DNA of 64,000 nucleotides, from positions 8,454,196 through 8,518,195 of the forward strand of contig CM017567.1 in assembly GCA_007844125.1 (NCBI GenBank), in the 5' to 3' direction. The DNA is from Sinonovacula constricta. Lineage: Eukaryota > Mollusca > Bivalvia > Cardiida > Solecurtidae. The position numbers and the translations under genes were made by a program. The notes below the pieces were generated by a model. It was not told the DNA's origin. It saw only the letters and a list, made by a program, of their open reading frames with translations, and ran no database searches. Every line of letters begins with the position of its first letter. The stretch's first letter is position 1. Positions 121 through 63,321 of this stretch are shown one piece after another.

Positions 121-197
121 CTTGCCATATATTACCACATTAACAGATCCCTTCAGTATAATATACCAGGAGGTGCCCTCATCTCCTTGGTTGAACA
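121..197 (-). CDS. RAPGEF4: Epac/RAPGEF4-like exon: CNB-B beta-hairpin (internal exon)
   Basis: This internal exon of a cAMP-regulated Rap exchange factor encodes [20 protein letters not shown] followed by VIYGK, the first strands of the second cyclic-nucleotide-binding domain of Epac proteins. In Epac this domain binds cAMP and releases the catalytic half, which then loads GTP onto Rap at membranes. On the minus strand the exon follows an acceptor (TTTCAG, ending at 198) and ends at AAG before donor GTAAGG (115-120). It starts in phase 1: its first two bases join the last T of the previous exon to make Leu. It ends in phase 0. The phosphate-binding cassette of this domain must lie in the next exon, beyond position 1, so cAMP-binding residues of CNB-B cannot be judged here. 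Family assignment is strong; choice of RAPGEF4 over RAPGEF3 is less certain, since invertebrates often have a single Epac gene. Confidence 0.9.
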
Positions 198-561: not shown

Positions 562-707
562 AGACAGTGCCTGCCCTGGCATGTGACTCAAACACCAGTA
601 CACTGGCCAGCTCACGTTTGACCATGGTGGACAGATGGGACAGGGCCTTGATGTGCAGCAACTCCTCATAGATAATCTCCAAGTCCTCCATAGTACGCTC
701 ATGTGGC
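562..707 (-). CDS. RAPGEF4: Epac/RAPGEF4-like exon: DEP to CNB-B linker helices
   Basis: The minus-strand exon encodes [19 protein letters not shown], then [20 protein letters not shown] and ESHARAGTV. This is the helical lead-in and first strand of the second cAMP-binding domain in Epac2, close to the vertebrate sequence in length and order (known family pattern: [17 protein letters not shown]). The acceptor is TTTTCCCCAG (CAG at 708-710) and the donor is GTAAGT (556-561). The first base completes an Arg codon begun by CG at the end of the previous exon; the last base, T, starts the Leu codon finished in the 121-197 exon. Length 146 nt fits these phases exactly. Conservation is high, as expected for the hinge region that couples cAMP binding to catalytic release. 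Confidence 0.93.
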
Positions 708-949: not shown

Positions 950-1133
950 CGTTTTCTTAGAATCATCCTCATCATGGCATCTGGTCCGATCTGAGCCAGT
1001 AGTAGGAAGACATCGGCCAGTTCCTCTTCACTCTCCCGTTTGGTGGCGCTAGTGGGCACTGTGCTGACACCCTCATCATCCTCATGAAAACGATAGAACA
1101 GGTACTTGTCCTTGAACTGGTGCTCATGGCAAA
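950..1133 (-). CDS. RAPGEF4: Epac/RAPGEF4-like exon: end of DEP domain and linker
   Basis: The exon encodes CHEHQFKDKYLFYRFHEDDE (end of the DEP fold), an acidic variable stretch with VSTVPTSATKRESEEELADV, and FLLLAQIGPDAMMRMILRK, which leads into CNB-B. The DKYLFYRF and MRMILRK signatures are characteristic of Epac proteins. The DEP domain targets Epac to membranes by binding phosphatidic acid after cAMP activation (family knowledge). The acceptor is TCTCTCACAG (CAG at 1134-1136) and the donor is GTAGGT (944-949). The exon starts in phase 1, completing a Val codon after the previous exon's final G, and ends with two bases (CG) of an Arg codon. Length 184 nt agrees with both. Confidence 0.93.
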
Positions 1134-1546: not shown

Positions 1547-1775
1547 CATGCACAACCACACCCTCCTCCACCAGGGCTTGCCACATCCCAACCGCCTGCG
1601 TCCGGGAGTGCACCAGAGGGCTCTGCTGCATCAGCCAGTCCACCATCTCTGTGCCGACCATACACCGACGGTATGTGCGCAGGTGAAACTTACGGTCCCG
1701 TATCATGTGAGAGGCACGTGTCAAGAGAACTGTCCGCAACACACAGCCAGCATGAGCCAGTCTGTCTGATGGTTC
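1547..1775 (-). CDS. RAPGEF4: Epac/RAPGEF4-like exon: DEP domain core
   Basis: The exon encodes [60 protein letters not shown] and [16 protein letters not shown], an almost complete DEP domain. [15 protein letters not shown] and [16 protein letters not shown] are diagnostic of Epac DEP domains and include the conserved Arg of the RDRK turn. DEP directs Epac to the plasma membrane (family knowledge). The acceptor is TATTCAG (CAG at 1776-1778) and the donor is GTAAGT (1541-1546). The exon starts in phase 0 with GAA and ends with one base (G), matching the next exon. Because it starts in phase 0, it is compatible both with the linker exon 2172-2287 and directly with the phase-0 end of the CNB-A exon far upstream. 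Confidence 0.95.
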
Positions 1776-2171: not shown

Positions 2172-2287
2172 AGCAGTGAGCGGAGCAGCAGGGTTGGGTA
2201 GTTCCTCCACCTTGATTTTGCTGGAGGGCTTGGTCTTGTTTGGGTTGCCATGGCTACCTGGACTGGACACTTTCTGGGGGCTCACTG
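2172..2287 (-). CDS. RAPGEF4: Epac/RAPGEF4-like exon: variable linker before DEP
   Basis: This 116-nt exon encodes a Pro/Ser/Lys-rich linker: AVSPQKVSSPGSHGNPNKTK then PSSKIKVEELPNPAAPLTA. It precedes the DEP exon in frame. No domain is visible; Epac2 also has a poorly conserved linker at this place. The acceptor reads TTCTTCCAGCAG, a tandem NAGNAG site, so the exon may start at 2287 or 2284 (with or without one residue). The donor GTAAGA (2166-2171) follows GCT. It starts in phase 1, so it cannot follow the phase-0 CNB-A exon (63175-63321) directly: that frame would read CAG TGA. It does match the phase-1 ends of the giant exon (4654) and of the candidate mini-exon (46851). Confidence 0.75.
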
Positions 2288-2458: not shown

Positions 2459-3304
2459 TTACAACCATTTTTTCACTCTTGCCTGAACAATTTGTGGTAA
2501 GCAAGCATACTTCTTATCAAGTTAAGAGGAAATACATGTGAATAATAGGTAGAGAAATACAGACACTAAAATTAACCAAAGTATTCATTTGGAAAAAAAA
2601 ATAAAAAAAATCAAACAACAATTTCCTAAAGCAAGTTTGAAATAAACATCTATGCACAAGAGAAATCATAATTACCAAGTTATGTGCAGTTATGAACAAA
2701 GCAAAATTGCAATGTGTCAAAGTGTGTCATAGAGATTTAAATATAGAGCTATCACAAAGAGATGAATACACCCTCTACCCTTTTATTCGGCAGTAATACA
2801 TTTGATGTCTTAAGTATGACCTTGACTTTTGAGCTAGCTAGTTTGGTTCTTGCAAGCTACACCACATCTTTAATAGGCAAACATTTGTGGCATTTCTTTT
2901 CAATTTGTTAATCTTTTAGGTGTTTAGCTCAGAAAACTTTGAAACTGACCAACTGACAAATGGAATAACAGACAATGTGAATCCTATATAGACTTCATGC
3001 CCTGCACTGCCAATATTTTAGTTTGCAAAAACTAAAAGTATAAAACAAAAACCAAAGTATCAATGTTTTTGAACATGTGACCTTTAAAAACAATAGCAAG
3101 TCAAAAGTAAATGTAAACGAACTGGAAACAGTAATTATCTATGTACACAGAACAACTGTGTTTCTAAAAGAATAAAAATATTCAAACAAAAATAGAAAGA
3201 GAAAATATAATAATCTTTCATGAAATCAGAAGAAGAAAAAGGCTACTTCATGTTTGTTTAAAAGCATCTGCTGTTTTTCATCTTTTCACGCTGCATTAAT
3301 TTGA

Positions 3305-3490
3305 AAATTGTTAAATTAAAAAAAAAATACAAAAATACATGTATATCATAAATATATCTCTTTATACATTTAAAGGCATACCAGGTGAGATGATGAAAAA
3401 ATTGTAAAATTAAAAAAACAAAAAAAACATGTATATTATAAATATATCTCTTTATACATTTAAAGGCATACCAGGTGAGATGATGAAAAG
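3305..3490. repeat. Tandem duplication of about 90 bp in an intron
   Basis: A segment with a poly-A tract, ACATGTATAT, AAATATATCTCTTTATACAT and CATACCAGGTGAGATGATGA occurs twice in direct orientation, about 90 bp apart. The copies differ by a few bases and an A-tract length change, so the duplication is fairly recent. Confidence 0.85.
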
Positions 3491-4400: not shown

Positions 4401-4653
4401 CAGTTAACCAACAAACAATTTTATAATGATATAGATTTTATTGACTACCTTCCAACTGAACAGCAATTTACTGGTGTTTTTTCCTAGAAATTCTTCTTGG
4501 GTTTACCTTAAAAAATGATAGGTTAAGGTCATCTTGTCAAAAGACTTTTAAGAAATGATATTTATATAAAAAAAAGACTAAACAAACCACATTACACCAA
4601 ACCCAACTAGTCTCAAAGAAACCGCCAACATCATATAACATGCTCATACTCAC

Positions 4654-7600
4654 CACCTGGAAGTGCCGCCAGCGGTGTGATCACAGAATCCATGAGCTGC
4701 TTGTTCCGCTGTAATGAGTAAACACAGATCACCTTGTCATCACATTGTATGGAGTGTAGCATGTACCCAAGACATACATCATACTGGACCACAGTTTCCA
4801 AGTCTGGGTCCAGTGTACCTTGAACATCAGGAAGTCCTGAGAAAAAAGGATCTTCCTTTGGAAAGCCGCTCCATGATGGCAACCTATTGGGGGTTTCTAT
4901 AGGAATTGATAAGCCACTAAAAACCTCCTCCGACCATGATGATTTAGGTGACTGGGTTATTTGGAATTCTGATAAAGATCTTTTGTTAGGTTTAAGCACA
5001 GTATCAAAAGGTTTGGCCTCGTTCATAAGACTAATATCGTCATTTGAAGCTGATATCTTTCTCTTGCCACTTTCAGCAGAATTAAGCCGATTTGATTGGA
5101 TGAGAGTAGCTTTGAACTCTGTCACATGTTGGTCATCAAAGAGAAATCGTCTTGCAAATGAGGAAGTTTTGTCTGCTTTTGGTGTTGATGTTTTAACATG
5201 ATCAGTGGACTTTATGTGTCCATTTTCATTGTCATTGTTCAAATCACTGAATGAGAATCGTTTGATATCTGATGACTCAGTAGACTTGCCTTGCTGTTGG
5301 AAGTCAATGTCATTTGCTGACAAAACTTTGGATCGTCTAACATTTCTAGGCAATGGAGGTTTTCTAGTTATATTCCTTCCTTGGATCTTGTCTGATGTTA
5401 ATTGTTCCTGGGATCTGAATGGTTGTTCACTTTTACACTTCATGAAATCATCCGCTGAATCTAATGTTCCCATGTGTGCAGGATCAGATGATTTTGTATC
5501 AAAGATGTTTTTATTTTCATCATGATCTGTTGACCCAATAATATTGATTTCAGCAATATTTACACTTTCAGGTTTATCCTTTATGTCTTTCATTGCCAAG
5601 CAGTCAAGGTTTTGTCCAAGATCTGCCTGATCAACGGATTTAACCAAGGCATCAAAGTCATTCAAAACATCAGCTGATTCTTCAGCCATTACAGTCAGCA
5701 ATGCATCATGGGAACTTGACATTGATTTGACCTTAACAACTCTGGCCTCTTTTTTGCTCATTGTGTCACTAACTGATAAACGCTGTGGTTTGTCACACTT
5801 TTCAACTTCAGCATCATGCAGAAGATCACTGCAAGAATGGGCTTTAAGGCCACTTCTCACATAGTCTTGACTTTCTGGCATCTCTGAACACAATGTGAAA
5901 ATCTCATCACCTGCATACTCAATTCCTGGCTTGACACTAAATGGAATATTCAAGTCACAGTTCTCAGACTGACTGAGATTAGTTTTCTGCAAGCTATTTC
6001 TCTGATTTCTAGAGGCAGTTTGAACCTCATCATCAGTATCATCAGTAAAATTATCTAAATCATCAGCACTTAAATCTAGCACAGGCCTGTGGCGCAAGAG
6101 TGAAAAATCCCCACTCATTCTTTTAGGTTTTGTAAAGTCTTTCTTGAAGCTTGGGAATAAAGCACTCTCAATTTGCTTCATATCTATCAGAGACATTGAC
6201 AAACATCTTCTCTGTTTAAAACCTTTGCTATCAGATTCATATGATTCTGGTGATGACACATCAGTTCCAGAGTCCTTTGAAATCTTGTCAGTGTCATATC
6301 CCTTAGCTTTTAAAACATGAGCACTTGTCACTACACTTGGTTTGTTTCTTTTACAACTGCATTGTGAAGTAAGGTCACAAAGACTCAGTGCAGCCCTCCT
6401 TGTGACTGCACTCTCTATCATATTGTCAGGCTCTGATGATTCACTCCCACTTGATGCATGTCGCACTTTTCCACATTCTTTGCATACAGCAATAAAACCT
6501 CTATCTGATCTACTAGAAACATTACTCATGTGTTCATAATTTGATTGGCTATGTGATAGACCCAGATACTGAGAGCTGCCCATAGAACTTGCTTCTCCAT
6601 CAGAATAGTTATCATCATTTTGTACATCATCGCACAGTCCTCTCAGATATTGGGTATCAACGGATTTCATGATTTCATCTAAAAGTGTTGGACTTCTTAC
6701 GCCACTCTGGGATCTGTTCATAACACTATCTGTCCGACTACGAAATTCACTTTCACTAAATGCATTATGTCCAAATTTCAAGTTCAGCATTAGCCTTAAC
6801 CGTTTCTTCCAGGCTGATATCTCCTCTTTAGATGCTGGTCGTTTTCTAGGTACAGTAGTGAAAACTTTCTCGTACACTAACTCGGAGGTTTTCTCACATT
6901 TCTGTTGCTTTGTCCCTTGTTTAAAGGGACTATCCACTGATGTTGCTGAGTTGGATCTTCCTCTAATAAAATATGAAATACTTGATGCCATTTCAGCTCC
7001 TTTCTTTGCCATTAGATTTGTGAGTGATTTAGTCTTGAAGAATGGTGCTATTTTAGGCTTCTCGCTATCATCGCTTCTTATCTTAAATGAAGAACCTAGT
7101 TTAATGTTTGATATTGACTGAGCTTTTTCAGTTATCTTTTTTGATATGCTGCCAATTCTGCTCACTCTTCTTTTGTTGCCACCTGATTTGTGTTTCTTTG
7201 GATTAGGCATGGTAAAAAACTTTGTAACCTCGTCACATTCTGGGAAAGCATCATCAACACTACCAGCTTTGTGAGTTGTTTCCATAAGAGGTGACAGAGC
7301 ACTACTCAAACCAGAATCTGTGGAGGTTGTCATCTTACTCTTCAATCCTGCTACTGTCTCTTCCAATTCTAGGCTCATCTCTTTGATCTTCAAGTTAGAG
7401 TCCAGAGACCTTCTCTTTGAAAGTTTGTCCTTGATGGTTGATTTCTTTGTAGCAGAATCATCAAAAGAGAATGGTCTTATTCCAAAAAATGATCTTGGAG
7501 TTTTGGCTTGACTTTTATCACTTTGAAATGCATCAGATTGTTTTGCTTTTCCTTTTTGCTTATTTATTTTTGTTTTCTCCTTGACTTTACATGAGTTCAG

Positions 7601-9199
7601 ATTTGTGTCACTTTTTGATTTCTGGGTGTACGAGTCTGTCATATTCTCAAATGTCCCTGAATCACTTGAACTTACACTTTGCACATCTGCTTCAACTTCA
7701 GGCTCTGATTCTGAGAATAACACATCCTGACTGTGAACTGAATGGAAACTAGAACTGAATGAATCCACAGATTCATTGCTAACAGTCCTTGCCAGATTTA
7801 CTGGCTCACTTTCAGCATCATAGAATTGTTCATTTACATCAAAACCTAATGAGTGACTATCCCCATCCTCTTTAATCACAAGGGGTACCAAATGACCATA
7901 CTTTTTTGTAAGGTCTAGATCATCCAAATCATCAGCTAGATCTTGGTTCTTGTCATCCTTTAACACCCATGGACTCTCAAATGTCTGATTTAGGTCAAAG
8001 TCCAGAACTGGAAGTGCAGGTATATCAGACAAACTATCTCTGAGTGCTTTCTGCCCTTCATACTTTGTTCTTTCAAAAGTGTCAGAGTCACTATCAATTG
8101 ACAAACACATTTTGTCCAGTTTACCATCTGGAGAAGGACTGCCACTGTAAGAAACTTTATATTCTGCCTTATTATGCTTGTCTACTGGTACCTCACCTTC
8201 AAGAATATGAACTTGAACTGATATTGTTTTGTCCATGTCAAAATCAACTTTACTTGTACAGCTACCAGAATTTGTATGTTCAGGAAATACCTTTAGAGCG
8301 CCTTCACGAGTACATAGCACTGAATTAGTTATTCCTGCTGAAAAAGCCAAATGGGCAAGAGGCCCTTCTTCCTCATCTTGACCATAAACATCAGCACAAG
8401 TAGGTGAGGAAACACATGGAGGACTTATTGGACTCAGAATAGGCAATGAAAAGTTCTCCTTTTCAGAAATACTGATGTTGGCTGGCTTTCTTGGCTTTGC
8501 TGGGAAAACAGCATCAGATTTGAGCACATTCTGCTTTCTGTCAAAGCTAACTGGTCTAACAAGATGTGAAAAGTCTACAGTTTCAGGGGTCAAACCAAGT
8601 CTAGAACAAAGATACACAGATAAGTTCTTGGCACCAGTTGGGATTTGTTTGTCTGTAGTGGGTCCACTTGACAGTGGTAAGACAGACATGTCTTTCCTTC
8701 TGAACGAGTTCCTCAACCTGCTTAAAGTTGATTGTCTTTGAAAATGTAAATCACTTCCAGGCTTAAATTTTCTTGGTATAATTTTCTTGTGCTTTTTACC
8801 AAATTCTCTATTAAGTCCCACCTTTTGAATATTAATATTCAAACCTACTGGTAAATGGTTATTATTTTCTTTGTCTTTATGAACACTTTCATCTCTATTT
8901 TCTAGCACTATCTCATCAGTCTTTCTGTGTTTATTCCTGAAGCTTTTCAATGATTTGAACCTATATGACAGTGATCTGCTCAAAGTCCTACGAAAGGACG
9001 TCTTGCGTTTTAACCTAGGGGCAACTATTTCGTCATCGCTGTCATCTCCAACCACAGTATCATTGGCTTCTGTTTTTTTAGTCCTATCATGCCTCGTCAA
9101 TATTTGTCCATTCATACCCTTGTATGTGGGGAATAACTTGCCTGATAGCTTCATAGGCAGAGTCTGAAGCACCGAACTTTCCAATTTTCCTTCCATCAT
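4654..9199 (-). CDS. Giant alternative first coding exon of the Epac/RAPGEF4-like gene (1,515 codons)
   Basis: A single minus-strand frame runs 1,515 codons from ATG ATG (9199), with an in-frame TAA immediately before it. It reaches donor GTGAGT at 4648-4653; if read through it would stop only seven codons later. The exon ends in phase 1 and fits the linker exon 2172-2287, so I infer an Epac isoform that lacks CNB-A and has this N-terminus. I recognise no domain. The protein is rich in Ser, Asp and Lys. Visible features are a basic Ser/Arg stretch at about residues 64-90, a KRRVS motif near 676 (PKA consensus), KRRS and KRMS motifs, repeated Phe-Ser-Phe-Asp-like motifs (RPFSFDD, KRFSFSD, RRFLFDD), a probable helix with SAWKKRLRLMLNLKF near 795, Cys-containing CKECGK (about 905) and CSCK (about 947), and a more hydrophobic C-terminal 45 residues. 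An independent single-exon gene is possible but less likely. Confidence 0.8.
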
Positions 9200-10293
9200 T
9201 TAAGAAGAATCAATAATTGTATTATCAATTTTCTCCTTTACACTTCAAGAACATTCATAGTCTAGCATCAACTGTATTCCACCAACTTTTTTACAGATCA
9301 TGTTCAAAATACTTTTTTCAGCATAGGCACGCACTTCTCCTACATGTCCACATTCATCATTAACTGAGTGACATAATGTATCCTGGAACTTCACAATGTA
9401 AGATATCCTCTTATCATAACAGTGGATCCATCTAAGTAAGAATGGTAATTAATCCCTACACATGACAGGTCATAATTATCTCATCATTTTATGTTTTCAA
9501 CAACTTCTCTCTAGACATAGAGATAAATTGACGGCTACACGATCAGATTGCAACATGAGACTTCTGTTTTCGTCATAGACAGTGTTATTCTATATCACAT
9601 GTTATTGCATGTTTCTATGAACAAGTGTCTTGCTAATGGAATGTCCTTTGTTGTTAATTGAATATCTCTTAATATGATAACCTTATAATTGCTTTTTCTT
9701 GATGAAAGCTTTCAGTGGTCAAATTTAACAATTATAGGAATGGGTCTGATGAACTGTTCTATTTATTTGTGAATTTCACTCAGACAAATTGCCATATTTG
9801 CTATCATAGCATCCATAACTATTACAGCTTGCAGTATGAGTTTCACATTTTCAAACCAAAACACAACTCTTCCAAATATTTGTGCTTTATGTTTCTTCTT
9901 CATTAATTACTTCCTTCCACATTGAAAACAAAAAAACAATTTTCTGAAAGCTTCATTCATTTTTTGTGTGTATTTCAGTAATTAGTTTGTTCCATGTTGA
10001 ATACTTAATCCAGTCAACTTTGGTTAGTTTACTCCTTCCATACTGAATACTAAATCCACAGTTGCTGTTTTCCACACATTATAATCATAAATAGTGGCAC
10101 TGCCCTGCTTCGTTGTGTCTGCCATATTCCATCACTCTCAGAGCATGATTATCCTTCTGTTGTCATGTCCATTCATCCCAAGGGAGATAATTTGTAGCAT
10201 AATTCAGCATCCGTCCATAATGTTGGTTCTGGGTAATCGAAGTCAAACAGGCTTCTTGAAGTGAAGATCATTGCTCTTCCTTAGGTTTTCATC
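9200..10293 (-). promoter_or_regulatory. Candidate 5' leader of the giant-exon transcript
   Basis: No coding sequence is seen upstream of the giant frame. On the minus strand an acceptor-like site, TATATACTTTCAG, ends near 10294. A leader exon could therefore start at about 10293 and run into the ATG at 9199, giving a 5' UTR of about 1.1 kb with several upstream ATGs and stops. Alternatively transcription could start inside this stretch. No core promoter element is clear. Confidence 0.25.
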
Positions 10294-10949
10294 TGAAAGT
10301 ATATAGACAAAAGTTATCATAAAATAAGGTTCAACATAGTTTTAATTTGTATTTGCCTGCAGATATCAATAATTCCATTTGCATAACTATTCCATCTGTG
10401 TTTGTCATCAAGTATACAGGCAATGTTTAAATAATTTTATAAAATTGAACTTTTTTTTCTATTCTAAGTCATATTTTATGCCAATTGCACTGAAGATTTT
10501 CATTGCATCATCATATTTGATACGAAATAACTTTAAGTAAAAAGAAAAGTAGGGTACAACATCTTAAAAAAAATGCATTTTTAAGGCAAAAAGCTCTATA
10601 ATTCACAATTTTTACTGACTTCAATTATATGTGAAGACAAATCCAGTAGATGAACAGTTATAATTGCCATTATCAATACAACCCATTATCTAGCTATATT
10701 CACATCATGTATATTTACACTTAATACAGCTACAGGACCTTACTTACATGCATAACACAAAAGGTTTTTATCTGCACACATACTTCAAATACCTGCAGAC
10801 TAACCACATAGCTACTAGTGTTACAGCTATCGTTATAACAAAGGTAACTTATGACACAATCAGAATCCAATCTTCATGACCAATAACCCTTCTACCAGTT
10901 TATTGGCTATGTTGCACACAATGTAACGAGATGTGGTAGTCATTTAAAA

Positions 10950-11160
10950 TAAGCAGTATTCGAGAGAGAGGCCTTGAGTTCAAGCCAGTACCGCAACATT
11001 GTACAAAAAAGTGCAAGTGGCCTGGCTTATACTCAAACAAATAAAAGGGTAGTCCATGGTCATAACAGTGCCAGAATACTGTGTGACTTGGGGTGATATC
11101 ATGCCAGATGTTCATGACATGTTATTCACAGTGATGGCAGTCCTATATCTACTTCATGTG
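10950..11160 (+). mobile_element. SINE-A copy (tRNA-derived), plus orientation
   Basis: Starts with a tRNA B-box-like GAGTTCAAGCC and continues with the body found in reverse orientation at 28065-28375 and 43383-43640. The shared body includes the word for 'catctggcatga' read in reverse (TCATGCCAGATGTTCATG). The head upstream of the B box is degraded. Confidence 0.6.
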
Positions 11161-11469
11161 AATAATTTCCAGACAACAAGAAGAAAAAAGATTGTTGGCC
11201 AGACAATAAACCCACCAAACATATAATTTATGAAACCAACCCACTGACAACAGTTGACTGATAAATACTAGCATTATAAGCAGCTTTTACACACTAAACA
11301 ATAATACGTTTTGAAGATGCCACACAATGATCTGTAGAATATAGCCAGGGGTGTGCCTATACGTGCAACTGTACGCACGGTGTGTAAGTGCGTAAACCCA
11401 GGCACGCCCCTGATAGCTTTTTTCAAGGCATTAGTTTAAATTGTCTTATTTGCCTACTGCTATTGTTCA

Positions 11470-11512
11470 CACATAGATCTGGATCTACGCTATTTTCTCA
11501 AGCCTTGTCAAT
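11470..11512. repeat. Palindromic dispersed element, partial
   Basis: Contains GATCTGGATCTACGCTATTT followed by TCTCAAGCCTTG, a diverged right arm of the palindromic family. The left arm is missing. Confidence 0.5.
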
Positions 11513-19863: not shown

Positions 19864-21223
19864 AGTACATCCCTATGGTAATATTAATTTTAATCTGTAA
19901 AGTACATCCCTATAGTAATAATAATTTCAATCTGTAAAGTACATCCCTATGGTAATATTAATTTCAATCAGTAAAGTACATCATTATGGTAATATTAATT
20001 TCAATCTGTAAAGTACATCATTATGGTAATATTAATATCAATCTGTAAAGTACATCCCTATGGTAATATTAATTTCAATCTGTAAAGTACATCATTATGG
20101 TAATATTAATTTCAATCTGTAAAGTACATCATTATGGTAATATTAATTTCAATCTGTAAAGTACATCATTATGGTAATATTAATTTCAATCTGTAAAGTA
20201 CATCCCTATGGTAATATTAACTTTAATCTTTAAAGTACATCCCTATGGTAATATTAAGTTCAATCTGTAAAGTACATCATTATGGTAATATTAATTTCAA
20301 TCTGTAAAGTACATCCCTATGGTAATATTAACTTTAATCTATAAAGTACATCCCTATGGTAATATTAACTTTAATCTATAAAGTACATCCCTATGGTAAT
20401 ATTAAGGACAATCTGTAAAGTATATCATTATGGTAATATTAATTTCAATCTGTAAAGTACATCATTATGGTAATATTAATTTCAATCTGTAAAGTACATC
20501 CCTATGGTAATATTAATTTCAATCTGTAAAGTACATCATTATGGTAATATTAATATCAATCTGTAAAGTACATCATTATGGTAATATTAATATGGTAATA
20601 TTAATTTCAATCCGTAAAGTACATCCCTATGGTAATATTAACTTTAATCTATAATGTACATTCAGTCTGTAAAGTACATCATTATGGTAATATTAACTTT
20701 AATCTATAAAGTACATCCCTATGGTAATATTAATTTCAATCTGTAAAGTACATCATTATGGTAATATTAATTTCAATCTGTAAAGTACATCATTATGGTA
20801 ATATTAATTTCAATCTGTAAAGTACATCATTATGGTAATATTAATTTCAATCTGTAAAGTACATCATTATGGTAATATTAATTTCAATCTGTAAAGTACA
20901 TCATTATGGTAATATTAATTTCAATCTGTAAAGTACATCATTATGGTAATATTAATTTCAATCTGTAAAGTACATCATTATGGTAATATTAATTTCAATC
21001 TGTAAAGTACATCCCTATGGTAATATTAATTTCAATCTGTAAAGTACATCCCTATGGTAATATTAATTTCAATCTGTAAAGTACATCCTTATGGTAATAT
21101 TAATTTCAATCTGTAAAGTACATCCTTATGGTAATATTAATTTCAATCTGTAAAGTACATCATTATGGTTATATTAATTTCAATCTGTAAAGTATATTAT
21201 TATGGTAATATTAATTTCAATCA
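19864..21223. repeat. 37-bp satellite array, about 36 units
   Basis: Direct tandem repeats of a 37-bp unit built from GTACATCATTATGGTAATAT followed by TAATTTCAATCTGTAAA. Two subtypes alternate: CATCATTATGG and CATCCCTATGG. A few units are rearranged near 20575-20680. There are no unique spacers between units, so this is a satellite and not a spacer-bearing array. Confidence 0.97.
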
Positions 21224-23440
21224 GTTACAGATTGACATCTTGAATTTTAATACATTTTTTATATTGTGCACAACACTAAGCAGCACTAATCTATCTGATA
21301 TATCTTGTATGCCTTAGTGGTGATATATCTTGTGGTTTTGCCTCAAACACACCACAGGAAGCTACATGCCACAGACTTACTTAGAGAAATCTTACTTAGA
21401 GAAATCTTACAAATGTTGTTGTGTATTTAATTCTTAGCCTGCCAAGCATAAATGGGAGCTGTCTGTTTAGGATCTACACTTTTCACGGCTTGTGTAGTTA
21501 ATATGGCTTCTTTCTTCTGCATGCAGCTGTGGGGAAGTAAACTAGAAATTTAATATTAGCTATTGACAAATGACGTCAAATGTAGCCTGGTACATGTACA
21601 TGTTATGACAACCAGCAGTAAATGATATGTTAAACTCTAGATTAAAAACATGATACCTGTAGACAAATCATTAATTTTGTTCTCCAAACATGTTATTGAT
21701 ACTTCTCAAGGTGACAACTTTAAAGATATCTATTTTTATTTATTTTTACTTTATTTAATATGACTTATTTAAATTCCACTTAATAGACATGTTTGATCTG
21801 AAATAATGCAATGAGCGTTCAATATTTTTCTAAATATTATCTATGTGCATATGACCAAAAGTGCTTAAACAAGGTCAAATGTGCTTCCCATGTGGTGGTC
21901 ATGCTCATGAACTATAGAAAGAAAACAATGAAGTTGTTCACCGTAGAACCACATGCTATGTACAGACGCCTTTACCTGTACAACATGAGGTGCATGTTCC
22001 TATTGGGGTTTCATCACTCACAAATGCCCATGAATTATAAAAGCTAAATAAAAACAGCTTTAGTGTTAATTGGACACTTTCTACAGATATTGGAAAATTA
22101 GATGGGATGATAAACCCAACAAAGTATGGATTACTTAGACAGTAAAAGCACACTTAACATCTTTCAAAACTAATTGTTCGTATTTCACCATCATCTATTC
22201 TGCACACTTTTGATTCCAGGTCCAGCTTCTTGGAGAAAGCAGTTATTGAGAAATCCAAAATAATGAGTCCACACCATCACTGAATGTCTTCTGTTTGTCA
22301 AGTATATACAACAGTTTTGTAAGTTACATACAATATCCTAGCTGTTTTACAACCTGACTCCATTTTAACTTTACACAGCTTGGTTCCAACAGTAAAATTC
22401 ACAACATAATCCCAACTTGAATCCAAGTCAATTTAAACCCCAAATTGATTCTAACCAAGTGACGACTTTAATCCAACTCTCACATCATTTATACTGTTAT
22501 TTCAGAGAGAATAACTTTCTGTTTTTAATCTAAACAGCATTACAGAATACATTTAAAAAAAATCTTGACAGAATTTCAAGAATTTTATCCAAGAGCAATA
22601 TTCCACTTTATAACCATTGAAAGCTTCTTGTTTCAAGAATTGCACAATCCCTCTACTTTCATGGACACTTGAGACTTTCCTTCAACTTTCACCAGATTAC
22701 CTCCAACTGACATTTCCATGGTAATATCTATAGAATATCCTGGGGATTGAGAAGGGCTGATGTTTACAGACATATTATCTTTAAATTTAAGCAATTACTT
22801 CAAACAGGCTGTTCAGACTACCGTCCCTTAAGAGGTTTTTGTTTTACTGTAAATCTTCTAATAAATGCACATAGACATAACTTTAGTCATATGTATACTG
22901 TAACATGTATATACAACAATTTATTCTTCTACCTTTAATACTAAAAAAAGATACCTACCTGAATAGTTAAAAATTAGAACTTCATAATTATAAAACTAGG
23001 TGTCTGAACACAGAATAGTACATACATTTTTCCTTCATTTAAATTTTTCTTCCAGTGTAATGTAGTAACAGTTACAGTATTTGCATTATTGGTGGTTTTG
23101 TTCACAATATGAGACAAATTAACTCCCGACCCCAACTACCTATAGCAAAGGTCAATTATTTGCAGGTAAAATTTTGCAGCTATGAGACAACCTACTTATA
23201 CCTTTATGCATTTACACCCATACAGAATTAGTGATGTAATTTACAGGGGTGTGTATGGTACCCCAGATATTTATGAAGCTCTCTATTAACACTATCAGGA
23301 GTTGACAAATGAAATCACCTGGGTCCTTAAGTCATCACATCTTGTTTGACCATCACTTGAGCTCGCTGGCAGGCCAAAATGGAGACTAAGTAGCCAAGAG
23401 ATGGTAGAATGCTTAAGCTCTTAATCTGCTAAACCCAAAT
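21224..23440. other. Intron, no gene seen
   Basis: Unique AT-rich sequence with a palindromic element at 21436-21500. The region 22180-22760 is richer in C and A than its surroundings. No exon signature was found. Confidence 0.55.
21436..21500. repeat. Palindromic dispersed element, short
   Basis: TAGCCTGCCAAGCATAA is followed by GGGAGCTGTCTGTTTAGGAT and CTACACTTTTC. The left inner arm is lost. Confidence 0.55.
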
Positions 23441-23443
23441 AGC

Positions 23444-24543
23444 TCAGATCTAGGCCAATGTGGTTGATCCAGATTATCAGATCTAGGCCAATATGGTTGA
23501 TCCAGATCATCAGATCTAGGCCAATATGGTTGATCCAGATCATCAGATCTAGGCCAATGTGGTTGATCCCAAATATCAGATCTAGGCCAATGTGGTTGAT
23601 CCCAATCATCAGATCTAGGCCAATATGGTTGATCCAGATCATCAGATCTAGGCCAATATGGTTGATCCAGATCATCAGATCTAGGCCAATGTGGTTGATC
23701 ATCAGATCTAGGCCAATATGGTTGATCCAGATCATCAGATCTAGGCCAATGTGGTTGATCCAGATCATCAGATCTAGGCCAATGTGGTTGATCCAGATCA
23801 TCAGATCTAGGCCAATATGGTTGATCCCAATCATCAGATCTAGGCCAATATGGTTGATCCCAATCATCAGATCTAGGCCAATATGGTTGATCCCAATCAT
23901 CAGATCTAGGCCAATGTGGTTGATCCAGATCATCAGATCTAGGCCAATATGTTTGATCCCAATCATCAGATCTAGGCCAATATGGTTGATCCCAATCATC
24001 AGATCTAGGCCAATATGGTTGATCCAGATCATCAGATCTAGGCCAATATGGTTGATCCCAATCATCAGATCTAGGCCAATATGGTTGATCCCAATCATCA
24101 GATCTAGGCCAATATGGTTGATCCCGATCATCAGATCTAGGCCAATATGGTTGATCCCGATCATCAGATCTAGGCCAATATGGTTGATCCAGATCATCAG
24201 ATCTAGGCCAATATGGTTGATCCCAATCATCAGATCTAGGCCAATATGGTTGATCCAGATAATCAGATCTAGGCCAATATGGTTGATCCAGATCATCAGA
24301 TCTAGGCCAATATGGTTGATCCAGATCATCAGATCTAGGCCAATATGGTTGATCCCAATCATCATATCTAGGCCAATATGGTTGATCCAGATCATCAGAT
24401 CTAGGCCAATATGGTTGATCCGAATCATCAGATCTAGGCCAATATGGTTGATCCCAATCATCAGATCTAGGCCAATGTGGTTGATCCCAATCATCAGATC
24501 TAGGCCAATATGGTTGATCCAGATCATCAGATCTAGGCCAATA
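23444..24543. repeat. 33-bp satellite array, about 33 units
   Basis: Tandem 33-bp units built on CAGATCTAGGCCAATATGGT followed by TGATCCAGATCAT; a second subtype has CCCAATCAT in place of CCAGATCAT. A 9-bp deletion near 23700 keeps phase. Because 33 is a multiple of three, three long frames stay open (389 codons plus, 389 and 375 codons minus). Each is a pure 11-residue periodic repeat, so no protein is called. The array is flanked on the left by a degraded TCTGCTAAACCC block and on the right by an intact right arm of the palindromic family (24565-24600). Confidence 0.97.
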
Positions 24544-24559
24544 TGCAACCCCCACCTGA

Positions 24560-24605
24560 AGCTGTCTGATCAGGATCTGCACTATTTGTTGTCTAGTACT
24601 TCTAT
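24560..24605. repeat. Right arm of palindromic element bounding the 33-bp array
   Basis: AAGCTGTCTGATCAGGATCT then GCACTATTTGTTGTCTAGTA follows the last 33-bp unit within about 20 bases. It is a good match to the right half of the dispersed palindromic element. Confidence 0.8.
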
Positions 24606-26660
24606 TTACTTTTGCATGTGGTTTTAATTAATAAGGCAGAAACCTAACAGTTCAAAATCCAACCTGAGCATCCAATTGGGGAAGTAAGTCAGAAGTAATT
24701 TCGCAATTCATTCTACAAGTTTCAACTAATTCAAGGTGCCATATTAAATTATCTCTATCGAGAAACAGCAAAATAGGGACTAATGTAGGACAAAAATAGG
24801 TTTAAGCAATACTGCACTTTTTTACAGGTCTGATCTTAGTCAAGATATTTAAGGTAAGCTAATTTAATGTAGGATACTTCAGATTGTAGGCCTACGATAG
24901 CCTGATTAAGTTTAGACTGGAGATAGCCTGGTTGGGTAAAGCATAATAGCATAATAGCCATGAAGGTTTATTGACCATTGACAGGTAGTTAATAACATCA
25001 AAGGTTTCTGGGAACAGAATAGACCCATGGGTATATTAGGAACTTTTATCTATATGGTAGATGGGGTAATAAGATGTTTGAGATGAGTTTTTGATAAAAG
25101 AAAATGGGTGTAAACAAGTATTTTTAAATGCTATGTGGCTTTTATTTATATTTTGCCAGATGATATGAACTTTATCTGTTATAAACATGTTGTTGTTGTT
25201 TTTTTATTGCAAAAACTAAAGGAAACTACTTCCTTTTAATGTAATCAATAAAACTATTTATCAAGTATACAAAAACTCACTTAAAGAAATAAATAAACAT
25301 GTACTTTCTGCTTCAACATATAAATATTAACATAGAATTCAAGCATACAGCCTTTCATTACTCCAATGTGGAGAAAAATACATGAAAAAGTAAAAAAAGC
25401 ACCTACTTTATTGTACCTTCACCACAGCATTTTTTAATAGGGCTCCGTTTACTAGGTAACTCACACAGTACATGTACTTGATATCTTATATGAATAATGC
25501 CTGAACAATTTAGGATAGGGCATTCAAATGGTACTAGGACCAGCACATCACTAGCCCTTTTAGTGTCTGTACTTGGAAGTCAATGTCACTTCAATAAGTA
25601 ACATTAAAGCTTCAATATGACTCCCTTTTATTACTTGCACTATATATGGTTATGATAATGTTGAACATAAAAATGGCGCTCAATATTTTTTTGCTCCCTT
25701 TTATTAACAGCTATTACATGACATTAACGCATGAATAGTCATTCAGATAAAATATTTAAGTAAGCAGATTTGAGCTTGTGATTTATAAGTGTTTCTAGTG
25801 CATCCCAACTAAAGGCTACTAGCAGACTGTTTTTGATGCTTTAATGGTGTCTATCAATAAATGTTATCAAATGCATCTAATGTCTATGAATGATAAAAGT
25901 ATGATAACCCTGTAAAGATTTCATATACTTTCATAAAAAGTGAAAACAATAATATGATAGCTGGTTTCAAATCTTAAAAGGTTTAATGCACAATAAAAAT
26001 GGTGATTGTTTATTGCCACACAGTTTAAAGCTGCTTTTTTCATCTAAAACTGATTTTTTGTTTGAACCTGGTTTAAAAAAAAAAAAAAAGATTGTACTCA
26101 GCATTTTATTTCAACATAAAGACCCAGTACAAAGGTCAGGCTTAGACAAAGAGAACAGATCTAGATCAGCCAAATCCAGCTGGGAGCTGTATGATCAGGA
26201 ATTACACTATTTATTGTAATACTTTTTTCAATACAAAGGGTTACATATTGATAATCTTTGTAAACATGAAACATAGTATGGTACCAATTTGTATCAAAAT
26301 ACTCAAACTCTAACCATATGCATGTATTTAAAAAATGTCACATTGCATCTTAATTATAAATAGTTTGTGAGTCTAACTAACATACTTGTGGTTGAAATAC
26401 GTTCTCCATAGCTGACAGCCATGTGTCAGGTTACTTGTTAATGTATACTAGTGGGCTATAGTCAGGTCCTTCGTTGCTCTGGCTGTGAAATATGGCCATG
26501 TAATGTTTTATGTTGCCCCTGGTTACTTTTTTACGTTAAAAGGGTAGGGTCTTGTTGAACTAAAGTATATATGGCAAGAAAGTGGCTTGGCTGTCAGAAC
26601 AGGGGAAAAAAAATGCAGTACCTCTGACCCTAAATGGTTTGATATGGGCCTACAGAATTC
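24606..26660. other. Intron, no gene seen
   Basis: AT-rich sequence with no exon signature. A palindromic element lies at 26135-26222 and a poly-A tract at 26074-26089. Confidence 0.55.
26135..26222. repeat. Palindromic dispersed element
   Basis: GTCAGGCTTAGACAAAGAGA, CAGATCTAGATCAGCC, then AGCTGGGAGCTGTATGATCA and GGAATTACACTATTTATTGT: both arms with the GGGAGCTG centre. Confidence 0.75.
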
Positions 26661-34605: not shown

Positions 34606-35448
34606 ATGTCAAAACACTTTTATATGTAATAGTAAGAGGCACCAACACTTAGTTTAGGTTACGAATAAAATGTTGCATAACTTTTTTTGTATTTAACATT
34701 TTTAAAACAACCTGAACATAGTTTTATCACATGATTCCCCATGTTTTCCATTTAATATACCCCATTACATATTTTGTTATATTATACTAGTGTAATACAA
34801 TGTTTTAATTGATAACATCATCAACATCATCATAATACAGAGAGTCTTCTGGCACTATTTCACTAAGTATTTCTGCTAAAATTTCATAAAAATGTGTATT
34901 GGCAATTAAAATCATGTGATAAAAAGAATATGACACTCATTGTCAATAAATACAAACATTTATAAAACTTGTCCAGGAAATAAGCTTGTAAACTTGCCAT
35001 TGGCTCGGTTACTATTACTTTTCCTGAACTTGTTCAATAAATGTTTGTATAAAACAACAACTCTCGTCAGATCCTCTATGTGTTGAGCATGTTACATTTT
35101 CTATTTTTTAAAAAACACAAAATGCTAAATTTGTAACTTTGTAAATGATAGATTATGATATCATCACCATAACAGTTTTCCAAAAGATTGCAATTATTTT
35201 TGGTAAAAGAAATCAATTTATATAATTTATATTTATCAAGCTAATTTAGCTATTAAAAATTCCATTAACCTTTCAAAATATTCCAATTGTACATGCAAAA
35301 TTACACACCATAGTCAGATATGAAAACCTCAGTCATATTATCAGTATTATGACTAAGAGTAATGCAATATTTCCCTTAAATAGGAAGCGTCACATGTCTC
35401 TATGCATCATGTATATTATTATGCTTTACTCTTGCTAGACACAAAATT
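34606..35448. other. Intron, no gene seen
   Basis: Unique AT-rich sequence with no recognised feature. Confidence 0.5.
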
Positions 35449-36768
35449 GTTGACCTCGGGCAAACAGTGGGATCTGTACTTTTTCACTGCTGATCACAAG
35501 CTGTATACCTTTTACCTTTGCATGTAGTTGCAGAAAATATACAAATTTAGTTTGGACCTTCAACAAAATGGTAAGGGTCAATTGTGTCCTGCATGCTTGT
35601 AGTGAAACCCAACAACCATTCATTGGTTTTACAATAGCATTCATCTGTTATTTTTGGAGATTTGCCACATGCCTGAGTAGAACCACCAGTTGAATGCAAG
35701 CAAGTGAAACCTTCCTTTCAGATACATGAAAACTTCCTGGCCTATGAGGGGACGCGCAGCAAAGAAGGACTGAGTATTGTTGACCTCGGGCAAACAGTGG
35801 GATCTGTACTTTTTCACTGCTGATCACAAGCTGTATACCTTTTACCTTTGCATGTAGTTGCAGAAAATATACAAATTTAGTTTGGACCTTCAACAAAATG
35901 GTAAGGGTCAATTGTGTCCTGCATGCTTGTAGTGAAACCCAACAACCATTCATTGGTTTTACAATAGCATTCATCTGTTATTTTTGGAGATTTGCCACAT
36001 GCCTGAGTAGAACCACCAGTTGAATGCAAGCAAGTGAAACCTTCCTTTCAGATACATGAAAACTTCCTGGCCTATGAGGGGACGCGCAGCAAAGAAGGAC
36101 TGAGTATTGTTGACCTCGGGCAAACAGTGGGATCTGTACTTTTTCACTGCTGATCACAAGCTGTATACCTTTTACCTTTGCATGTAGTTGCAGAAAATAT
36201 ACAAATTTAGTTTGGACCTTCAACAAAATGGTAAGGGTCAATTGTGTCCTGCATGCTTGTAGTGAAACCCAACAACCATTCATTGGTTTTACAATAGCAT
36301 TCATCTGTTATTTTTGGAGATTTGCCACATGCCTGAGTAGAACCACCAGTTGAATGCAAGCAAGTGAAGCCTTCCTTTCAGATACATGAAAACTTCCTGG
36401 CCTATGAGGGGACGCGCAGCAAAGAAGGACTGAGTATTGTTGACCTCGGGCAAACAGTGGGATCTGTACTTTTTCACTGCTGATCACAAGCTGTATACCT
36501 TTTACCTTTGCATGTAGTTGCAGAAAATATACAAATTTAGTTTGGACCTTCAACAAAATGGTAAGGGTCAATTGTGTCCTGCATGCTTGTAGTGAAACCC
36601 AACAACCATTCATTGGTTTTACAATAGCATTCATCTGTTATTTTTGGAGATTTGCCACATGCCTGAGTAGAACCACCAGTTGAATGCAAGCAAGTGAAGC
36701 CTTCCTTTCAGATACATGAAAACTTCCTGGCGTATGTGGGGACGCGCAGCAAAGAAGGACTGAGTAAT
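35449..36768. repeat. 330-bp tandem repeat, four nearly identical copies
   Basis: Copies start with TGTTGACCTCGGGCAAACAG at about 35449, 35779, 36109 and 36439. By eye they differ at only a few bases (an A/G in GTGAA[A/G]CC, and two or three changes at the end of the last copy). Each carries the same 108-codon minus-strand frame starting ATGAATGCTATTG, closed by a stop within each unit; the first copy is cut to 69 codons by the left edge. I do not recognise the peptide. Near identity means recent expansion or homogenisation. Confidence 0.97.
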
Positions 36769-54369: not shown

Positions 54370-57300
54370 TTTACCATCATGAAACATGGTTAATATTGGG
54401 CATTCTACCCAGCCTAGCCACCAGGTCCCTATATATCCATCATGGAACATATTCACTGTGGGGGCATTCTGCCCTGGTCAGGACAGCTAAACATCATGTG
54501 GCTACATAACCATCATGTAACATGGGCACAGTGGGGACATCATCATACAACATGATCACTGTTATGGCATTATTCCATGGCCAAGACAGCCTAACTACCA
54601 GATGCATAGTTTTCATCATGACACATGGTCTAAATAGAGGCATTCTGCTATGGCCAAGATGGCCTAACTAGCAGATGTCTAGTTTTCATAATGACACATG
54701 ATCGATATGGGGGCATTCTGCTATGGCCAAGATAGCCAAGCTACCAGATGTCTAGTTTTCATAATGACACATGGTCTATATGGGGGCATTCTGCTATGGC
54801 CAAGATGGTCTAGCTACCAGATGTCTTGTTTTCATCATGATACATGGTCTATATGGGGGCATTCTGCTAGGGCCAAGATGGCCTAGCTACCAGATGTCTT
54901 GTTTTCATCATGATACATGGTCTATATAGGGGCATTCTGCTATGGCCAAGATAGCCTAGCTACCAGATGTCTAGTTTTCATCATGATACATGGTCTATAT
55001 AGGGGCATTCTGCTATGGCCAAGATGGCCTAGCTACCAGATGTCTTGTTTTCATCATGACACATGGTCTATATGGGGGCATTCTGCTATGGCCAAGATGA
55101 CCTTACTACCAGATGTCTTGTTTTCATCATGACACATGGTCTATATGGGGGCATTCTGCTATGGCCAACATAGCTTAGCTACCAGATGCCTAGTTTTTAT
55201 CATGACACATGGTGTAAGTGGGGGCATTCTTCTATGGCCAAGATGGCCTAGCTACCAGATGTCTAGTTTTCATCATGACACATGGTCTATATGGGGGCAT
55301 TCTGCTATGGCCAATTTCACCTAGCTACCAGATGCCTAGTTTTTATCATGACACATGATGTAAGTGGGGGCATTCTGCTATGGCCAAGATGACCTAGCTA
55401 CCAGATGTCTTGTTTTCATCATGACACATGGTCTATATAGGGGCATTCTGCTATGGCCAAGATAGCCTAGCTACCAGATGCCTAGTTTTCATCATAACAC
55501 ATGGTCTATATGGGGGCATTCTGCTATGGCCAAGATGGCCTAACTACCAGATGTCTAGTTTTTATAATGACACATTATCTATATGGGGGCATTCTGCTAT
55601 GGCCAAAATAGCCAAGCTACCAGATGTCTAGTTTTCATAATGACACATGGTCTATATGGGGGCATTCTGCTATAACCAAGATGGCCTAGCTACCAGATGC
55701 CTATTTTTCATCATGACACATGGTCTATATGGGGGCATTCTGCTATGGCCAAGATGGCCTAGCTACCAGATGTCTTGTTTTCATCATGACACATGGTCTA
55801 TATAGGGGCATTCTGCTATGGCCAAGATAGCCTAGCTACCAGATGTCTTGTTTTCATAATGACACATGGTCTATATGGGGGCATACTGATATGGCCAAGA
55901 TGGCCTAGCTACCAGATGTCTAGTTTTCATCATGACACATGGTCTATATGGGGGCATTCTGCTATGGCCGATTTCACCTAGCTACCAGATGTCTAGTTTT
56001 CATAATGACACATGGTCTATATGGGGGCATTCTGCTATGGCCAAGATGGCCTAGCTACCAGATGTCTAGTTTTCATCATGACACATGGTCTATATGGGGG
56101 CATTCTGCTATGGCCAAGATGGCCTAGCTACCAGATGTCTAGTTTTCATAATGACACATGGTCTATATGGGGGCATTCTGCTATAACCAAGATGGCCTAG
56201 CTACCAGATGCCTAGTTTTCATCATGACACATGGTCTATATGGGGGCATTCTGCTATGGCCAAGATGGCCTAGCTACCAGATGTCTTGTTTTCATCATGA
56301 CACATGGTCTATATGGGGGCATTCTGCTATGGCCAAGATGGCCTCGCTACCAGATGTCTAGTTTTCATCATGACACATGGTCTATATCGGGGCATTCTGC
56401 TATGGCCAAGATAGCCTAGCTACCAGATGTCTTGTTTTCATAATGACACATGGTCTATATAGGGGCATTCTGCTATGGCCAATTTCACCTAGCTACCAGA
56501 TGCCTAGTTTTCATCATGACACATGGTCTATATCGGGGCATTCTGCTATGGCCTAAATCGCCTAGCTACCAGATGCCTAGTTTTCATCATGACACATGGT
56601 CTATATAGGGGCATTCTGCTATGGCCAAGATAGCCTAGCTACCAGATGTCTTGTTTTCATAATGACACATGGTCTATATGGGGGCATTCTGCTATGGCCA
56701 ATTTCACCTAGCTACCAGATGCCTAGTTTTCATCATGACACATGGTCTATATGGGGGCATTCTGCTATGGCCAAGATGGCCTAGCTACCAGATGTCTAGT
56801 TTTCATCATGACACATGGTCTATATAAGGGCATTCTGCTATGGCCAAGATGGCCTAGCTACCAGATGTCTAGTTTTCATCATGACACATGGTCTATATGG
56901 GGGCATTCTGCTATGGCCAAGATGGCCTAGCTACCAGATGTCTTGTTTTCATAATGACACATGGTCTATATAGGAGCATTCTGCTTTGGCCAAGATGGCC
57001 TAGCTACCAGATGTCTAGTTTTCATAATGACACATGGTCTATATGGGGGCATTCTGCTATGGCCAAGATGGCCTAACTACCAGATGCCTAGTTTTCATCA
57101 TGACACATGGTCTATATGGGGGGGCATTCTGCTATGGCCAAGATGACCTAGCTACCAGATGTCTTGTTTTCATCATGACACATGGTCTATATGGGGGCAT
57201 TCTGCTATGGCCAAGATGACCTAACTACCAGATGCCTAGTTTTCATCATGACACATGGTCTATATGGGGGCATTCTACTATGGCCAAGATGGCCAAGCTA

Positions 57301-58771: not shown

Positions 58772-59202
58772 GCCATTACATCTAAAGTCTAAGGACCTGA
58801 ATAGTCATGCAACTAGTAAATAAACATTGAAAACTTCAAGTGTATCACTCATTTACTACAGATATAGTTAAATCTAATTTATACCCCCAGTTCCTTACTA
58901 TTTGGCAGTAGAACCTTTGATAGTTGACGTTGACCTTTGAGCTAGCAATCAGTCGGTGCTTGACCCTCCATCTTAATTTGGAAAACAAGTGATTTGAAAG
59001 TTCTTTATTCCTGTGCGAATTTAAGAGAGATGAAAAAGAATTTACCAACTTACCTGCAAGAAAGAACTTGACCTTTGAGTAAACTAAGTTAGAATTAATA
59101 AAATTCTTTTTAAATTATACCTTACATCATCTTTTACTTGTTCTGAGAAAATTCTGAGGTCATAAAAAACAAACAGCTCACAACCCTTGGGACTTTTTAA
59201 AT

Positions 59203-63174: not shown

Positions 63175-63321
63175 CTCCCATAGTATTTTGAAGTCCTTCT
63201 GTTCTACACGTATCAGTTCAGTGTAGTCTTGAGTGATGATGGTACAGTGTCGAGGCCGGTTGGTCAACACAGACTCGCCAAAAGATGTCCCAGGACCCAA
63301 CGTACATAGTGTTATCAAATC
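63175..63321 (-). CDS. RAPGEF4: Epac/RAPGEF4-like exon: CNB-A phosphate-binding cassette
   Basis: This 147-nt, phase 0 to phase 0 exon encodes [40 protein letters not shown] and QKDFKILWE. It is the second half of the N-terminal cAMP-binding domain of Epac2, with the cassette [14 protein letters not shown]. The Glu that contacts the ribose and the Arg that contacts the cyclic phosphate in this fold are both present, so binding is plausible. In Epac2 CNB-A has low affinity and helps place the protein in the cell (family knowledge). The acceptor is TTTTACTGCAG, immediately preceded by a TA microsatellite. The donor is GTAAGA (63169-63174). Earlier exons of CNB-A lie beyond 64000; the next exon in Epac2 (YRQYMAGLL segment) was not found. 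Confidence 0.92.

Follow-up and report, generated by a model that had tools for sequence, protein, structure and literature searches.

The question raised by this 64,000-nucleotide stretch of Sinonovacula constricta DNA (the window; positions 8454196-8518195 of contig 13) is why an open reading frame (ORF) of 1,522 codons on its minus strand should run into an ordinary exon of a gene for Epac, the cAMP-dependent Rap exchange factor. We consider it likely, at a probability of roughly 80%, that a single Epac2-type gene uses the frame as a hybrid first/internal exon, which serves as the alternative first exon of an isoform of ~2,350 amino acids without the first cyclic nucleotide-binding domain, CNB-A. 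The gene can thus probably also make a giant, mostly unstructured form of Epac in which the first sensor domain is replaced.

In the ORF listing the frame occupies window positions 4631-9199, from an ATG at 9199 to a stop at 4631. Inspection of ORFs and splice sites bore out what an earlier note on this DNA had read there, namely an uninterrupted frame from ATG to donor, with a stop (TAA) in frame immediately before the ATG and closure seven codons past a donor that follows position 4654. At the local base composition 1,515 codons would be free of stops with a chance of ~1e-48, and each of the other five frames carries 33 to 208 stops over 4654-9199. A whole-genome search found the frame as a single copy in the 1.22-Gb genome. 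Translation may start at Met1 (9199) or at Met16 (9154), the latter aligning with the MKF..KL start of several relatives, and 14% of the residues in the isoform-specific part are serine. The earlier description of a 1,515-codon exon stands as far as the frame is concerned, which is real, and falls as far as a stand-alone exon is concerned: the coding part (4654..9199, minus strand) is a composite of 1,497 isoform-specific codons and 18 codons that belong to the canonical Epac exon, and the canonical acceptor lies within the frame.

The gene entered by the frame lies on the minus strand and, to judge by its protein matches, is of the Epac2/RAPGEF4 type. A whole-genome search with the Mya Epac P0130 matched most of residues 28-1028 to the minus strand of contig 13, from 8525268 to 8443831, and the gene was traced over ~81 kb; residues 159-207 and some others were absent from these matches, and a search of the 83.5-kb gene region placed 157-176 and 189-212. 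CNB-A exons lie at contig positions 8525259 and 8518892, beyond the window, and at window position 63321, the last of them 54 kb upstream of the giant ATG. This last CNB-A exon (63175..63321, minus strand, ending KDFKILWE) has a phase-0 donor, GTAAGA, and would be joined to 4708 in the canonical isoform. Further downstream on the same strand are the DEP exon (1547..1775; best PDB match 1o7f, cAMP-dependent Rap1 exchange factor), the next exon with the end of the DEP region (VCHEHQFKDKYLFYRFHEDD..., 950..1133) and an exon between DEP and CNB-B (562..707), the latter two placed by P0130 matches and the splice model, and a CNB-B exon (121..197), after which the gene continues past the window to contig position 8443828.

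A spliced model in which GT-AG pairs were chosen for the best match to P0130, and which is rough at junctions 14-15 and 17-18, gave a canonical gene of 26 coding pieces with no internal stop. Pfam recognized in it two cNMP_binding stretches, DEP (E 7.6e-21) and RasGEF (E 2.9e-53, positions 1-181 of 181). RasGEF_N (REM) scored 24.3 bits against a cut-off of 28.3, with the splice model poor at junction 14-15, and the RA domain had no Pfam match at E<=0.01 in the model, P0130 or P0137, with the model dropping residues nearby at junction 17-18. Over aligned residues the spliced canonical part is 81% identical to Mercenaria and 79% to Mya and Dreissena, with 66-72% to six bivalve proteins (P0133, P0011, P0136, P0147, P0151, P0146) and 63% over 435 positions to Solemya, a pattern that by itself would make a heterodont clam the likely source. 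When the giant part is joined to the same exons, one open frame of 2,348 amino acids runs from the giant ATG to the Epac stop with no internal stop.

Where the giant frame meets the canonical gene can be read from the canonical isoforms. The CNB-A-containing proteins of Mya, Dreissena, Mercenaria, Potamilus and others read LW(E/D)|RNKQ or close to it, so the residues from RNKQ on are ordinary Epac exon and all those before are specific to the giant form; this comparison of the sequence before DEP covered 48 chosen ids of 249 proteins, and the junction pattern matched in 16 of the 21 named ids. The shared exon, RNKQLMDSVITPLAALPG, which is common to the CNB-A isoform, occupies 4655..4708 on the minus strand, and residues 157-176 of Mya P0130 match window positions 4711-4652. 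Directly before it stands the canonical 3' splice site TTTACTCATTACAG (4709..4722, minus strand), which is simultaneously coding in the giant frame and gives its last residues, YSLQ. The acceptor (TTTACTCATTACAG|CGG at 4722-4709) is in phase 0 and the CNB-A exon at 63321-63175 ends ATGGGAG|GTAAGA, also in phase 0; the reading frame of the giant ORF is that of the canonical exon. On this sequence evidence, the giant frame consists of a normal internal exon and its extension of ~4.5 kb, which reaches upstream past the exon's own acceptor. Its N-terminus would be joined at the exon after CNB-A, with CNB-A excluded, which at the level of sequence is the arrangement of an Epac2B-type isoform.

It is at this end that the giant frame is best conserved, with the consensus YDVCLGYLLHSIQCDNKTICVYSLQ|RNKQLMESVITPLAALPG, and the most conserved isoform-specific segment is ETVVQYDVCLGYMLHSIQCDDKVICVYSLQ (4709..4798, minus strand). 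All 14 sequences compared (the window, P0001-P0011, P0136 and P0137) have Y(S/T)(L/F)Q as the four residues immediately preceding the junction. Splice site and protein together plausibly constrain this run, because an acceptor needs a final AG, here provided by the CAG codon for Q, and pyrimidine-rich codons before it. The acceptor lies inside a conserved frame, and a read-through form (P0137) and a canonical form (Magallana gigas P0147) both occur in closely related sequences.

At the donor end, the claim that the donor is in phase 1 and leads in frame into exon 2172-2287 and the DEP exon holds when donor 4654 is paired with acceptor 2287 or 2284. Donor 4657 with either of these acceptors is likewise in frame, as is donor 4650 with acceptor 2280, and donor 4653 with acceptor 2287 runs into stops. 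With several in-frame pairs among donors 4657/4654/4650 and acceptors 2287/2284/2280, the exact giant-to-linker junction is not fixed by the sequence. The linker exon itself (2172..2287, minus strand, ending EELPNPAAPLT; acceptor 2287, 2284 or 2280) resembles that of Mya. The intron directly after the giant exon carries a 90-bp tandem duplication at 3304-3489, the copies of which are 92% matching.

A protein search with the whole frame, as the earlier note had proposed, found ten proteins at E<=0.001, one of them annotated (an RPGF4-like protein of Mya arenaria, P0004, 2,151 amino acids). The relatives are 1,422-2,151 amino acids long, with BLAST identities of 28-40% and coverage of the frame from 11% (P0006) to 98%, and in an end-to-end multiple alignment of 11 rows they are 29-33% identical to the window. 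A relic that was formerly conserved and is now unexpressed in this species would agree with the fact that related clam entries are mostly without the giant frame. We regard it as a very improbable account, since 1,522 stop-free codons (chance ~1e-48) and long open frames in ten relatives point to current constraint.

In the giant part, conserved blocks alternate with long variable stretches. Averaged over columns, the commonest residue has a share of 0.40 over residues 1-1470 and of 0.85 over the last 30 specific residues ahead of the junction; its share is 0.84 in the 18 canonical residues and 0.25 in the seven residues past the donor. In nine relatives the frame stays open for another 1 to 26 residues beyond the 18 that follow the junction, and these lengths differ except in the near-identical P0002 and P0003. 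Because conservation falls past the donor and the frame ends vary, splicing at the donor is favoured over a protein that ends there. This bears on the possibility that the frame is a single-exon gene of its own, without connection to Epac, which terminates at the 4631 stop and shares the canonical Epac exon only by overlap. Such a gene would explain why the frame has its own ATG and stop, why nine of the ten relatives are frames stopping soon after the donor, and why few annotated models join the giant frame to Epac. It is nonetheless decidedly improbable: the sequence past the donor is not conserved, the residues before the donor are the most conserved of all, the giant frame is in register with the canonical exon, strong conservation of the specific segment all the way to the junction would be odd in a protein ending there, and two gene models (P0004 and P0011) as well as the apparently spliced contig P0137 join a read-through start to Epac.

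From the junction on, Mya P0004 matches the canonical Mya P0130 with 91% identity over 459 positions and with 87% over 346 more, and its giant part is ~30% identical to the window in the multiple alignment. The long N-terminus of Sinanodonta woodiana P0011 (a hypothetical protein of 2,268 amino acids) ends with the related LGYLLYTITCDDNVICIYSLQ and shares 31% identity with the window along 240 aligned positions that reach the junction region. Both, like the form proposed here, have a giant N-terminus and the same motif before RNKQ, followed by DEP-CNB-RasGEF, and both are gene models; Epacs with such an extension, of which the earlier note knew none, are thus present in databases at that level. 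P0137, an oyster-like protein of 972 amino acids, is encoded on a contig of 5,624 nt; its first 79 residues end in DICLGYLAYELDLKQNGQKLCIYTLQ, and past the junction it shares 97% identity with Magallana gigas Epac. It most likely derives from spliced RNA, as its single frame spans 23 coding pieces of this gene, and it would thus support the read-through start and not the giant part. In the Pinctada imbricata model P0136, 119 residues precede the junction. Both P0136 and P0137 carry the CLGY...C(V/I)Y(S/T)LQ motif and show the same acceptor read-through as the window, although with a far shorter N-terminal part. Littorina P0139 has 18 residues before the junction (MMGCLLRRFRSRSYSLHQ), and across the 15 proteins measured this number ranges from 18 to 1,712.

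Neither P0004 nor P0011 has an N-terminus that can be aligned with the CNB-A part of P0130 and P0133. This matters for another explanation, in which the giant frame is wholly or partly internal in a CNB-A transcript, or is preceded by an additional, untranslated first exon. Such a transcript could use the acceptor-like CTATATACTTTCAG at 10306-10293, ending at 10293, and the stretch 9200-10300 would form a long 5' leader with several ATGs; as a variant, an internal acceptor may lie within the giant frame. The TAA right before the ATG, however, blocks in-frame joining of CNB-A through the whole exon, and together with the unalignable N-termini this leaves such an arrangement unlikely.

We also looked for domains, short motifs and predicted structure. 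The giant part has no Pfam family at E<=1, and its 11-row profile matches no PDB sequence at E<=1. Rfam gave no matches at gathering scores. The conserved blocks, all on the minus strand and placed by the multiple alignment, are SPTCADVYGQDE (8363..8413), a Ser-rich block (DSFSSSFHSVHS...FSESE, 7682..7789), a basic block KRRVSRIGSISKKITEKAQSISNIKLGSSFKIR (7058..7174), a block whose SPFK, present in 10 of 11 rows, is a proline-directed Ser site (6896..6985), RSPTLLDEIMKSVD (6641..6709), RHRPVLDLSADDLD with PVLDLS, a PxIxIT-like pattern in 10 of 11 rows (6044..6109), and KVKSMSSSHDAL (5684..5755). The cysteines C906, C909, C947 and C949 (CxxC...CxC, 6353..6484) are invariant in all 11 rows, and in sequence terms they are a possible small metal-binding element within an otherwise probably disordered region. 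A scan for short motifs used seven patterns, one of them an empty placeholder. It showed no 14-3-3 pattern in the giant part of the window; SH3 class II matched once and PP1 twice, in no case at a site kept in at least 8 of 11 rows. Kept across rows were one of two CDK-type sites (SPFK, 10/11), one of nine basic-Ser sites (RRVS, 9/11) and one of two PxIxIT-like sites (PVLDLS, 10/11), all of them putative motifs.

A structure model of giant residues 500-1522, made with 10 alignment rows, has a mean pLDDT of 35.8, with 914 of the 1,023 residues below 50, values that agree with a mostly disordered giant part but, at this number of rows, are no proof of it. At its end the model places strands at 1480-1486 and 1489-1495, within the most conserved isoform-specific segment, then a helix at 1500-1511 in the shared exon, all at a pLDDT of ~50. 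These two strands and the helix near the junction are too weakly predicted to build on, and in a model of P0137 (28 alignment rows) residues 1-126 are below 50.

A number of points weigh against the hybrid exon and its giant product. The giant transcript is a prediction from DNA. No promoter signal emerged from the CpG ratio in 14 bins over 8001-11500, where 0.57 at 9001-9250, the start of the giant frame, stands beside 0.70 at 11251-11500 and the values are too noisy (0.17 window-wide). The segment before the junction has a low-confidence fold in the models of both the giant part and P0137. The giant part, going by the sequences compared, is not general in bivalves, as P0137 and P0136 hold only 79 and 119 residues before the junction. 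Among the matches listed (120 of 122, from 5,840 candidates of 1,183-3,764 amino acids) P0004 and P0011 are the only mollusc giants, and no giant isoform was found among them in the Mya, Dreissena and Mercenaria entries that have canonical isoforms. The whole-frame protein search, limited in its scoring to the 7,983 candidates with the most words in common with the frame, gave no separately annotated copy of the giant part among its matches besides P0004. Annotation pipelines often use RNA-seq, and those applied to Mya, Dreissena and Mercenaria may not have supported a giant form.

For the hybrid exon, which we continue to prefer, we infer promoter, transcript, protein and function along the following lines. 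The canonical transcript, as suggested by relatives and splice sites, would splice the CNB-A donor at 63175 over 58 kb to the acceptor at 4709, so that only 4708-4655 of the exon is used. The alternative transcript would start within that intron, slightly upstream of 9199, and since no upstream donor is then available to pair with it, the acceptor at 4709 would be left unused and translated as ...VYSLQ. From the shared donor near 4654 the giant exon would continue in frame through the linker, DEP, CNB-B and RasGEF. The product of ~2,350 amino acids would be of Epac2B type, keeping the cAMP-binding CNB-B and RasGEF, with CNB-A replaced by ~1,500 Ser-rich residues. This arm would carry short conserved motifs and a small conserved end element beside the shared helix, and would most likely act as a phosphorylation-controlled docking and targeting arm that sets the site of cAMP-driven Rap activation. 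The conservation of SPFK, RRVS and PVLDLS fits a phosphorylation-controlled docking scaffold, and by analogy it is plausible that swapping CNB-A for a long arm re-targets the enzyme, because loss of CNB-A changes the location of vertebrate Epac2.

The vertebrate counterpart is mouse Epac2B. In the passages of the two reports drawn on here, it is translated from an exon 1b, its sequence departing from that of Epac2A at residues 145/147 (PMC3701594), and in HEK293T cells Epac2B is about half nuclear and Epac2A largely cytosolic, with CNB-A proposed to block a nuclear pore signal (PMC4372255). As described there, mouse Epac2B resembles the form proposed here in its alternative start between CNB-A and DEP, the lack of CNB-A and the retention of DEP, CNB-B and RasGEF, and differs in having a separate exon 1b, whereas here a canonical exon would be extended through its acceptor with the gain of ~1,500 residues. 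LWE|KYRQ occurs in two vertebrate proteins, at residue 154 in P0169 and 148 in P0176, and the reported point of divergence of mouse Epac2A and 2B (145/147) fits the junction found here. The earlier reading of an Epac2B-like isoform gaining ~1,500 Ser-rich residues thus finds support in the gene structure, the mouse Epac2B position and the Mya and Sinanodonta fusions. Hybrid first/internal exons, terminal in some transcripts and internal in others as we propose here, are catalogued for human genes, without mention of a giant coding extension in the passages drawn on (PMC10256964), while first-exon use here is predicted from sequence. The giant exon of ankyrin-G, in a different gene family, is likewise described in excerpts as very long, with a Ser-rich part and giant isoforms with their own location (PMC12202978). 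Among the titles and abstract starts listed in a literature search, with most subscription journals outside its coverage, there was no description of a giant mollusc or bivalve Epac. In the portions consulted, the Mytilus coruscus genome paper has Epac only in its abbreviation list (PMC8063583) and the main text of an Epac phylogeny lacks the strings 'mollus' and 'epac2b' (PMC8534922).

A similar stretch occurs in Daphnia carinata P0023, which reads YEICLGHL...WISIFSLQ before KHQDEL, a sequence that follows the end of CNB-A in the canonical Daphnia P0022. With a motif profile of the 14 sequences, P0023 ranked first among the other proteins compared at an E of 2.1, which is not significant against 2.7 for the best reversed decoy. 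Shuffle tests of this stretch, chosen by eye beforehand, against five references gave p values of 0.0002 to 0.011, and of 0.0008 to 0.21 without the last four residues, in both cases uncorrected for multiple tests. Homology between the Daphnia alternative N-terminus at the same junction and the mollusc one is suggestive only. The ascidian Epacs P0036, P0037 and P0041 (1,744-1,879 amino acids) have long N-termini of their own. They were considered as relatives of the giant part and rejected, with no match in 11 of 12 comparisons; P0036 aligned with the window at 21.5% over 390 positions (39 bits, composition correction off), and the ascidian N-termini are apparently unrelated to it in sequence.

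Repeats are found in several places in the window. An Epac intron holds a 73-bp tandem array of ~57 copies at 54566-58772, a 330-bp unit repeated four times with 99% matching at 35446-36766 gives three near-identical ORFs of 108 amino acids, and a 37-bp array of ~37 copies lies at 19864-21222. The window has four ORFs of at least 250 codons; the three besides the giant frame overlap at 23413-24627 on both strands (375-389 amino acids), within a 33-bp tandem repeat (33.6 copies) at 23.4-24.6 kb, and look like artefacts of that repeat.

Epac2B and hybrid exons were already known, and what would be new here is a probable Epac2B-type isoform made by way of a hybrid first/internal exon with a giant extension. 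We would go further only tentatively, at somewhat less than even confidence, to a very old read-through start of Epac in which the 3' splice site is also protein-coding and kept coding by selection, with a motif that extends from Daphnia to clams, and which was inflated from ~80 to ~1,500 residues in some bivalves by extension of the frame into the intron, giving a giant, conserved, disordered cAMP-to-Rap scaffold. Epac is a main effector of cAMP and its isoforms differ in their location in the cell, and a lineage that swaps CNB-A for a conserved arm of 1,500 residues would provide a natural test of the part that CNB-A and the N-terminus play in setting that location. In addition, the locus suggests that conserved coding sequence can serve at the same time as a splice acceptor, and how a giant first exon may arise from an ordinary internal one.

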